DNA of 33,551 nt. It comes from a virus. This document shows positions 6,031 to 21,198 of the stretch, piece by piece. Position 1 is the stretch's first letter. Every line of letters starts with the position of its first letter. The translations under genes were made by a program, and so were the position numbers. Location: positions 1 to 33,551 of IMG/VR virus record IMGVR_UViG_3300034071_001157. One strand, written 5' to 3'. Under the pieces are notes generated by a model that saw only the letters and a program-made list of their open reading frames with translations, made no database searches and was not told the origin of the DNA.

Positions 6031-7383
6031 ATGGAAACACCAATCAAACCAGCGGTTATTACTGCCGGACAAACATCAACAGAGTTGCGCCAATTGCGCA
6101 AAGCAAACGCAGACCAAATCACCGCATTGATTGGTGATGATGGAAAACGTGCAAGAAGTGAGCAAGAAGATAAAGACTTGCAAACATTGCTTGACAATGA
6201 AACCGCTTACACCCGCGCAATAGAGTTGGCATTGCAGCTTGAAAAGCGTAACGCGCTGGCTGCTGGTCAAACGATTGAAAAAGACGAAAAAGAAAAGCGT
6301 GAAATGGGTAAGTTTAGCCTTTCAAAATTGGTTCGCGAAGTTACAATGGCCAAAGGCGATGTGAGCAAGGTTACTGGGTTAGAGGCTGAAATGTTGCGCG
6401 AATCAGAAAAGGAAGCCCGCGAAATGGGTATTAGCCCATCAGGCATATACCTTGGAAACAGCGTTATTGAAGCGGTTAACTACCGTACAATGACTGCTGG
6501 CACAGCCACCGCAGGTGGTAACTTTATTCCGACAGAAAAAGTTGGATTCTTTGATGCCCTTTACAACGCTACAGTAATGGCAGAGTTGGGCGTTCAGTCC
6601 TTGACTGGATTAAGTGCCAACACCGATTTGAAAGGTCTAAGTGCAGGTGCAACCGCCACATGGGGCGGTGAAACTGATTCAATTTCACCAAACGATGCCA
6701 CAACCGCAGCCCGCGAATTAAGGCCGAACACCTTAGCTTCTGCAATGGATGTGAGCCGTACATTAGCTGTTCAAACAAATAACAGCATTGATGCTTACTT
6801 GTTGAACTCGATGCGCAAATCAATGGCTGTGGCTTTAGAAGCTGCTGTTATTAATGGTGATGGAACAAACAAGCCTTTAGGTATCTTGGGAACAGGAGGA
6901 ATACAGTCCGTTGCTGTTGGAACAAATGGCGGTGCGTTAACTTACGCGTTGCTTTTGCAACTCGCTGAAAAAGTAAAAACAGCCGGGGCAAATGCAAACA
7001 ACTTGAAGTGGTTAACCAACTTTAAAGTTGAAGGCAAGATGAAGCAAACACCTATTGATGCAGGCAGTGGCGCAATGATTTTGGCTTACATGGCATACTT
7101 CAACGGCATTGCTGGAATGGTTGATGGTAAGCCAATCAGCTTTACGCAAAATGTGCCAAGCAACCTTGCAAAAGGAACTTCTGGCACTGTTTGTTCAGCA
7201 TTAATTTGTGGTGATTTCAGCAACATTGTGATGGCACAATTTGGTGGAATTGAGTTGTCAATTGATAGCACTTCCGCAGCAGTTGTTCGCGCTCAAAAAA
7301 TTGCGTTAACAATTACCCAGTTGGTTGATAGCGCAGTGTTGCAACCAGCAGCATTAGGCGCAATTCAAGATATTACTACCTAG
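6031..7383 (+). CDS. Major capsid protein, HK97 fold
   Basis: This 450-residue protein has the HK97 precursor layout. An N-terminal helical, charged arm of about 115 residues acts as a built-in scaffold (LRQLRKANADQI, then a coiled-coil-like EKRNALAAGQ and EKDEKEKRE region). It is followed by the shell domain starting near the TATAGGNFIPTEKVGFFDALYN segment. The central part has the typical FWGGE-like ATWGGETDSIS and the AVINGDGTNKPLGILG loop with its spine helix. It is made directly after the protease, which would remove the arm. A strong 11-bp hairpin starts right after its stop. Confidence 0.94.
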   Translation: METPIKPAVITAGQTSTELRQLRKANADQITALIGDDGKRARSEQEDKDLQTLLDNETAYTRAIELALQLEKRNALAAGQTIEKDEKEKREMGKFSLSKLVREVTMAKGDVSKVTGLEAEMLRESEKEAREMGISPSGIYLGNSVIEAVNYRTMTAGTATAGGNFIPTEKVGFFDALYNATVMAELGVQSLTGLSANTDLKGLSAGATATWGGETDSISPNDATTAARELRPNTLASAMDVSRTLAVQTNNSIDAYLLNSMRKSMAVALEAAVINGDGTNKPLGILGTGGIQSVAVGTNGGALTYALLLQLAEKVKTAGANANNLKWLTNFKVEGKMKQTPIDAGSGAMILAYMAYFNGIAGMVDGKPISFTQNVPSNLAKGTSGTVCSALICGDFSNIVMAQFGGIELSIDSTSAAVVRAQKIALTITQLVDSAVLQPAALGAIQDITT

Positions 7384-7410
7384 TATTAACCACCGCTTGG
7401 GTGGTTAATA
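7384..7410 (+). terminator. Perfect 11-bp hairpin after the capsid gene
   Basis: TATTAACCACC, a GCTTG loop and GGTGGTTAATA form a perfect 11-bp stem starting on the base after the capsid stop codon and ending 3 bases before the tRNA. There is no U-tract, so it is more likely an mRNA 3'-end stabiliser or processing element that separates abundant capsid mRNA from the tRNA than a classic intrinsic terminator. Confidence 0.6.
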
Positions 7411-7413
7411 CTT

Positions 7414-7486
7414 CGCGGCATGGAGCAGTTGGTAGCTCGCTTGGCTCACACCCAAGAGGTCGCAGGTTCAAGTCCTGCTGCCGCAA
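7414..7486 (+). tRNA. Initiator-like tRNA with CAC anticodon
   Basis: A full 73-nt cloverleaf folds without mismatches except at the first acceptor position. Acceptor 2-7 GCGGCA pairs TGCCGC, the D stem is GAGC/GCTC, the anticodon stem CTTGG/CCAAG and the T stem GCAGG/CCTGC with loop TTCAAGT. It has two hallmarks of bacterial initiator tRNA: the unpaired C1-A72 and the A11:U24 pair. The anticodon loop is CUCACAC, giving anticodon CAC (reads GUG, Val) in place of CAU. The anticodon stem has two of the three initiator G:C pairs (30-31). CCA is not encoded, as is common in Bacteroidetes. It lies between the capsid gene and a small head gene, within the late operon. Confidence 0.9.
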
Positions 7487-7500
7487 CTAATTTTTTTATT

Positions 7501-7728
7501 ATGACAATTACATTTTTAAGGTCAGCAGCACCATTTGGCTATGCTTATTCCGCTGGTGATACCGCAGAATTTGAGGAAGCACTTGCGCTTGAATTTATCG
7601 AGCGTGGTATTGCAATAGCAGCCGAAGAAGAAACCAAAAAAGAGGTTAATCCAAACGATGAGGGACAAGCCGAAACAGCAGTGAAAAAAGCGATAGAACC
7701 AAAACCACAAGGCTTAAAAAGGCTGTAA
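7501..7728 (+). CDS. Small protein of the head module
   Basis: This 75-residue protein begins at the ATG at 7501; an upstream in-frame ATG at 7420 lies inside the tRNA and is rejected. The first 45 residues (ITFLRSAAPFGYAYSAGDTA and ALEFIERGIAIAA) match the pattern of short proteins often found just after capsid genes: a beta strand, a Gly-Asp turn and a helix that ends in a Gly. The rest is a charged Glu/Lys/Pro tail. The role is unknown; a decoration or connector accessory is possible from position alone. Confidence 0.65.
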   Translation: MTITFLRSAAPFGYAYSAGDTAEFEEALALEFIERGIAIAAEEETKKEVNPNDEGQAETAVKKAIEPKPQGLKRL

Positions 7729-20367: not shown

Positions 20368-21198
20368 TTAAACATTTAACCGTGCAAGTGGGCTAACTGT
20401 ATTCGCTATCAATGCGGTGCTTACATGTGTGTAAATCAGCGTGGTTTTAATACTGTTGTGGCCTAGAAGTTTTTGTATTCTACTTATGTCAGTGCCTTGT
20501 TCAAGTGAATGAGTGGCAAAACAATGCCTTAACAAATGCGCATGAACGCGCTTGTTTATTTTTGCCTTGTCTGCATATTTTTTCAAAAACTGATTAATGC
20601 TCCTTTCGCTGTATTGCAATGAACACTGTCCGTTAAAAAGGTACTCTTTGGGTTTATAAGTTGAGTAGTAGTTGCGCAATATTTCAAGCAATGAGGCGTC
20701 AAGCATTACCTGCCTATCTTTTTTGCCTTTTCCGCAAATAATATTAATTACATTGCGCTTGCTGTCAATGTCTGTAATGCGCAGATTAATAACCTCAGAC
20801 ACACGCAAACCACAACCATAAAGCAAGCAAATAATGGCCTTGTGTTTAAGGCTTTCACACGCATCAATTAACAACTGAACTTCACTAATATCAATTGGCT
20901 GTGGCAGCTTCTTTTCTTTTTTGGGCCAAGGTACATGATTTAACTTCATTGGCTGCTGTACAACCAGTTTATAAAACGCTTGAATAGCGCACCGGGCATG
21001 TTTTCGGCTGTTAATTACTGCATTGTTGTTTAAATATTGCTCTATTTCATCAGCAGTAATATTTCTAGCCCGGTCCCGATCTTTAAAAGTTCGCAAAAAA
21101 ACACGGACCTGCGAAGCGTAATTATCACATGTGCTTTTTGCCCAATTTTTGCTTGTCATTCGTTGTACGAATATTTTTTCTGCTTGTACGATGTCCAT
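20368..21198 (-). CDS. int: Tyrosine recombinase / integrase
   Basis: This 276-residue tyrosine recombinase has all catalytic residues: R132 (GCGLRVSEV), K158 (GKGKKDR), H221 and R224 (HAHLLRH), H247 (LLGHNSIKTT) and the nucleophile Y256 (IYTHV). An N-terminal SAM-like core-binding domain spans residues 1-85. The C-terminus TVSPLARL after the tyrosine resembles the SPL ending of many Bacteroidetes and integron-type integrases. The extra insertion of classical IntI proteins is not obvious. It is a likely phage integrase; it also sits at the edge of the attC-like cassette array and might act on it. Its stop lies 1 base from the convergent lysis gene. Confidence 0.9.
   Translation of the reverse strand: MDIVQAEKIFVQRMTSKNWAKSTCDNYASQVRVFLRTFKDRDRARNITADEIEQYLNNNAVINSRKHARCAIQAFYKLVVQQPMKLNHVPWPKKEKKLPQPIDISEVQLLIDACESLKHKAIICLLYGCGLRVSEVINLRITDIDSKRNVINIICGKGKKDRQVMLDASLLEILRNYYSTYKPKEYLFNGQCSLQYSERSINQFLKKYADKAKINKRVHAHLLRHCFATHSLEQGTDISRIQKLLGHNSIKTTLIYTHVSTALIANTVSPLARLNV

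Follow-up and report, generated by a model that had tools for sequence, protein, structure and literature searches.

Codon supply, defence evasion and lysogeny have been put forward to explain the presence of single tRNAs in phages, but the question is unsettled. The window, that is, the whole stretch of DNA analysed here (a linear IMG/VR virus record of 33,551 bases), poses it with an initiator-type tRNA that carries a valine anticodon and lies directly behind the major capsid protein (MCP) gene: what could such a molecule be kept for? The features concerned are as follows:

6031-7383, plus strand: HK97-type major capsid protein gene, phrog_617 (E 1.5e-46; relatives at 44-57% identity)
7382-7412, plus strand: perfect 13-bp hairpin overlapping the capsid stop codon (fold prediction)
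7414-7486, plus strand: body of the initiator-derived tRNA (C1xA72, A11:U24, U29:A41/G30:C40/G31:C39, A73)
7447-7449, plus strand: anticodon CAC (valine, reads GUG; direct reading and ARAGORN)
7487-7489, plus strand: CUA in place of a templated CCA (direct reading)
7501-7728, plus strand: small gene, phrog_2616, with its ATG 11 nt after the CUA (E 2.5e-05)

The sole tRNA call by ARAGORN in the window (7414-7487, plus strand, anticodon CAC), the match of the Rfam tRNA model to 7414-7486 (65.4 bits, E 3.1e-12) and direct reading all agree on the initiator-type tRNA with a CAC anticodon that a sequence-only reading had placed at 7414-7486. The C1-A72 mismatch, A11:U24 and intact cloverleaf named there were likewise read directly: the D, anticodon and T stems are intact, every stem is paired except for the 1x72 mismatch, and A73 and the conserved core bases are present. 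Among the marks of initiator tRNAs, position 1:72 lacks a Watson-Crick pair (C1xA72) and a purine 11:pyrimidine 24 pair is found (A11:U24), but of the three G:C pairs at 29-31:39-41 only 30:40 and 31:39 are kept, with U:A at 29:41 (anticodon stem CUUGG/CCAAG), and the anticodon is CAC rather than CAU. Among those of tRNA-Val, the valine anticodon (A35 C36) and A73 are present, but the elongator body (1:72 pair, pyrimidine 11:purine 24, kinship) is not. The anticodon loop reads CUCACAC, compared with CUCAUAA in the nearest initiators, and thus differs by two changes, U36C (7449) and A38C (7451). The T-to-C change from CAU described previously is real, but it falls at 7449 (position 36) and not at 7451, which is position 38. 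A sequencing error at 7449 may lie behind C36; however, a lone error, the source previously raised for the change, does not account for the second differing loop base (38). The 3' end is A-CUA instead of ACCA, and the CCA of the mature tRNA would need to be supplied once the 3' end is trimmed.

The host-side comparison covered 198 Bacteroidota genomes, the phylum of the host of a related prophage, and 148 of them gave a match to the window tRNA; the best 30 of these 148 matches were all initiator-type tRNA-Met(CAT). The best Bacteroidota initiator among the matches listed (L037) is ~89% identical to the window tRNA, compared by the same lenient measure with 74% for tRNA-Val of the L012 genome (Bacteroidia), the prophage-bearing MAG from which host tRNAs were taken. 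Among all loci compared, the closest was a phage-borne CAT initiator (L165; 64/72, ~89%), and six or more phage-borne initiators that have the normal CAU anticodon share its CTTGG/CCAAG anticodon stem, so that the stem with U29:A41 is not peculiar to the window tRNA. Judged by these sequence relationships, the window tRNA is a descendant of initiator tRNAs, and its source was likely a phage-borne initiator, because L165 is the closest and the anticodon stem is common to the phage CAT initiators. It resembles bacterial tRNA-fMet, including phage-borne copies, in this identity to L165 and L037 and in 1x72, A11:U24, G30:C40 and G31:C39 (in CTTGG/CCAAG, the phage copies), but differs in having CAC for CAU, C38, U29:A41, CUA for a templated CCA and a position behind a capsid gene. 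All eight stem differences from L037 fall within four complementary double changes, and random placement of eight changes kept all pairs in only 4 of 200,000 trials, although L037 merely stands in for the actual ancestor. This complementarity argues that the fold has been maintained. The window tRNA could otherwise be a passenger, an initiator tRNA picked up by chance and now drifting without a present role, as a single case with a changed anticodon, CUA for CCA and tRNA-free nearest MCP relatives (L186 and L001) might suggest. However, its stems remain paired apart from 1x72, its conserved core bases are in place, and 73 nt without a function would probably not survive unbroken in so compact a late operon; we consider this reading unlikely.

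The CAC form appears to be rare. Initiator cores with CAA, CAC or CAG were found neither in 2.9 million viral contigs, where records very near the window possibly fall outside the search, nor in 395 Bacteroidota genomes, in both cases by an exact pattern that fits the window's own tRNA (checked by eye) and does not cover all initiators. The CAT version of the same pattern gave at least 120 matches in viral contigs. A tally of 125 CAT among 126 A11:U24 tRNAs is biased by the way the loci were collected and unusable as a rate. In a small, selected sample, lone phage CAT initiator tRNAs (L125, L083, L272 (Javan59) and L274) were located immediately upstream of HNH/terminase genes or some few genes ahead of the capsid gene.

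Could the tRNA decode? The sequence-only reading had proposed that it directs initiation at GUG starts late in infection: valyl-tRNA synthetase (ValRS) would charge it via A35/C36 and A73, the formylase would accept it via the 1x72 mismatch, and the resulting fVal-tRNA would start proteins at GUG. The premise, that valine-anticodon initiators are charged by ValRS and initiate at the matching codon, holds for an E. coli initiator carrying a GAC anticodon, which is ValRS-charged, formylated, active at GUC and efficient in re-initiation (PMC2268962), evidence that concerns GAC/GUC and not CAC/GUG. By analogy, valine charging and formylation of the window tRNA are chemically possible; the retained 1x72, A11:U24, G30:C40 and G31:C39, and the occurrence of the same anticodon stem in CAT initiators of other phages, are also in keeping with initiation. 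The engineered valine initiator (G34C36) and the window tRNA share an initiator body with the A35 C36 valine identity, but the latter is natural, reads GUG instead of GUC, bears other loop and stem changes and is known from sequence alone. However, every gene in the window can do without a GUG start: only two ORFs begin with GTG (5354 and 32549), with in-frame ATGs 14 and 22 codons later, and the late-gene starts are all readable as ATG. The host's CAU initiator tRNA already reads GUG. Moreover, the A38C loop change is unneeded for valine identity, and the exact-pattern searches of the viral contigs and the 395 Bacteroidota genomes gave no second case. GTG accounts for 22% of the late valine codons and for 6/26 in the capsid gene, so that no valine-codon demand stands out. 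Late GUG initiation is thus possible but unsupported, and we consider it unlikely; if true, it would make this a natural valine initiator, none of which was met in the collections searched.

The altered loop also bears on defence. Phage tRNAs targeted by anticodon nucleases tend toward loop mutations (PMC10264068), and the window loop differs at 36 and 38; an initiator-type tRNA changed in this way could escape or titrate putative host tRNases such as a VapC that cuts tRNA-fMet. However, a CAC tRNA cannot simply replace tRNA-fMet at AUG, and phages are reported generally to avoid encoding tRNA-fMet where the anticodon itself is targeted (PMC10264068), which leaves evasion or decoy activity quite unlikely. 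A tyrosine integrase is encoded in the window (20368-21198, minus strand), and phages with tRNA-dependent lysogeny, which integrate into and disrupt a host tRNA gene and supply their own copy, are documented (PMC10865867). In our case, the tRNA sits downstream of the capsid gene in an operon of late genes, which a lysogen is expected to keep silent, and with a CAC anticodon it would be no substitute for an initiator, making this role very improbable.

The sequence-only reading correctly placed the tRNA beside the capsid gene and behind a hairpin. It lies between the phrog_617 and phrog_2616 genes, within the head-gene operon; a phrog_2616-type small gene follows the capsid gene in relatives as well. 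The hairpin ends 1 nt before the 5' end of the tRNA and occupies the same place as the post-capsid hairpin of the window's nearest relatives, and together hairpin and tRNA are predicted to fold at -48.1 kcal/mol (z -4.6). The suggestion that a strong hairpin implies high expression did not hold up: the hairpin lacks a U-run, terminator scoring did not pick it up, and the promoter searches gave nothing near it. A Bacteroidota-type promoter had no match anywhere in the window, and in the interval from the capsid gene to the tRNA the plus strand had no sigma-70-like site, the host promoter type being uncertain in both searches. The Bacteroidota -7 motif TANNTTTG occurs 32 times in the window versus 52.9 expected (sd 6.9), as if avoided, and 100/100 shuffles of the window had at least 32.

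A terminator was likewise not detected in this interval; with neither signal found there, the tRNA would, judging by sequence, be made only by cutting the late mRNA just behind the capsid gene. The best explanation for the window tRNA, which we put forward tentatively and with confidence a little short of even, is intercistronic tRNA punctuation in the late operon. An initiator tRNA, probably phage-borne, would have come to sit behind the capsid gene as punctuation and be co-transcribed with it, having no findable promoter of its own. A cut by host RNase P at 7413/7414 would leave the capsid mRNA with the 13-bp hairpin and one further nucleotide at its 3' end, and the downstream mRNA, released by 3' trimming or RNase Z, would keep a leader of ~14 nt. 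Selection would hold the fold, while decoding would be secondary or free to drift, and in this way the anticodon could have become CAC. RNase P processes the phage M3 and C4 RNAs and also polycistronic mRNAs (PMC11143913). Cutting or protecting the capsid messenger is the more likely role of the window tRNA, rather than GUG initiation. However, operon tRNAs are all processed by RNase P, so that processing alone is no proof of selection for it, and the retained C1x72 mismatch and A11:U24 are not needed for punctuation; these retained marks weigh most heavily against a role that is structural alone.

The corresponding place in other phages was surveyed in 79 sequences, including the window, after capsid-protein scans had given the relatives at 44-57% identity and more distant ones; the gap is incomplete in a few contigs. 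Every post-capsid gap long enough to read held structured RNA, and four types could be distinguished: type A is the window, type B (20 contigs) a tRNA-like minihelix, type C (24 contigs) a GGGCGG...CCGCCC hairpin and type D (34 contigs) comprises other hairpins, mostly terminator-like. The 100 nt behind the capsid gene were more stable than other gene ends of the same contigs (z-scores, p 1e-11, a value inflated by near-copies). In the capsid tree, types B and C each formed one clade (support 100/100 and 100/99, respectively), and the window grouped with the type D contigs L186 and L001, its nearest MCP relatives, whose gaps hold no tRNA. This grouping makes it likely that the hairpin is the older state and that the tRNA was added later in the window's line. 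Plain hairpins are found in most relatives, so this place can do without a tRNA fold, and among the 79 sequences a full tRNA was found there in the window only. In five contigs of the L013 group, a CAT tRNA lies 851 nt after the capsid end, behind the connector gene and thus one gap further on than the window's (6174-6246 in L013, likewise in L014-L016 and L018); this tRNA also carries A11:U24, but its positions 1 and 72 form a U:A pair and little of the G:C run is left. The type C hairpin, GGGCGGU..GGC UUAGCG GCC..CCGCCC (L012 and part of L196-L230), shows changes in inner-stem pairs within its one capsid clade. A pseudoknot considered for it by eye was dropped, as L012 and L224 break its pairs.

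The type B minihelix comprises a 7-bp acceptor stem and a 6-bp T arm with a tRNA-type T loop in 43 nt, without D or anticodon arms, and occurs in 20 contigs of one MCP clade as eight sequence variants (L002-L004, L019, L021 and part of L210-L238; for example, L218 5327-5372). It runs from AAGCGUG through a 10-nt linker with GGAAGUA, the 6-bp stem and a UUCRAUN (or CUCGAUA) loop to CACGCUU. All 13 pairs are kept across seven distinct sequences, three with compensatory changes versus none or one in slid controls; the acceptor pairs are invariant and thus uninformative on covariation. The L218 copy scored 21.3 bits (E 0.015) against the Rfam mascRNA-menRNA model, below its gathering score of 42.5, and matched the tmRNA T arm in Rfam at E 4e-4; the L217 copy, whose loop has C54, matched neither. 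A covariance model found 18 copies in the loci searched, 18/18 behind the capsid gene, and two weak matches in the 395 Bacteroidota genomes. In a Bacteroidota prophage (L251, 1500-1546, minus strand), a 27-bit match with a different acceptor stem was located between structural genes, where it directly adjoins the stop codon of one and the ATG of the next; this element had no tRNA-like match in Rfam. Outside the type B clade, a generic descriptor gave three hits versus one in shuffles over 2 Mb, and these hits (L095, L098 and L164) were set aside, lying in or beside tRNA-rich stretches.

The minihelix, a tRNA mimic, cannot decode, and it and the window tRNA are of separate origins. That a structured element, including a mimic incapable of decoding, is kept in relatives is not predicted by GUG initiation. 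A broader proposition, for which we claim rather less than even confidence, is that capsid-related phages use tRNA-shaped RNA as a cutting and protecting signal behind the capsid gene, separately derived as a repurposed, anticodon-changed initiator in the window and as a 43-nt mimic in a sister clade. If punctuation is true, an initiator-derived tRNA unfit for AUG, together with the non-decoding mimic in the same gap of sister phages, would show directly that certain phage tRNAs owe their retention to their shape, as signals for RNA processing, and tRNA-shaped elements behind capsid genes would be a wider lead. Parallels exist in tRNA-like elements cut by RNase P or of the mascRNA kind (MALAT1, phage C4 and M3 RNAs), which likewise have an acceptor/T-arm fold on a longer transcript and whose mascRNA model the relatives' minihelix matches weakly; here, by contrast, the carrier would be the late mRNA of a phage, the element in the window is a complete tRNA, and cleavage is proposed.

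Phage LUZ100 offers, by analogy, a precedent from another phage for a transcript end before a tRNA. Its tRNA-Asn is also a lone tRNA in a structural operon, but it is an elongator tRNA of a Pseudomonas podovirus and precedes the capsid gene within the late region. In the record (L277, OP329100, 20769-20906), terminator T14 is annotated at 20769-20868, and by our reading the -60..+40 convention puts the mapped transcript 3' end at ~20829, ~2 nt before the tRNA-Asn at 20831. The authors label T14 a terminator (PMC10134795). It is not labelled rho-independent, and this 3' end may be an RNase P product.

In the window, an ORF (7420-7728) runs in frame through the tRNA into the downstream gene, whose product could thereby gain 27 residues. 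Such an N-terminal extension was judged to be chance, because the distance from identical minihelices to the next ATG differs by 1-2 nt, which breaks the frame. Some minihelix phages likewise show an ORF that is open through the element.
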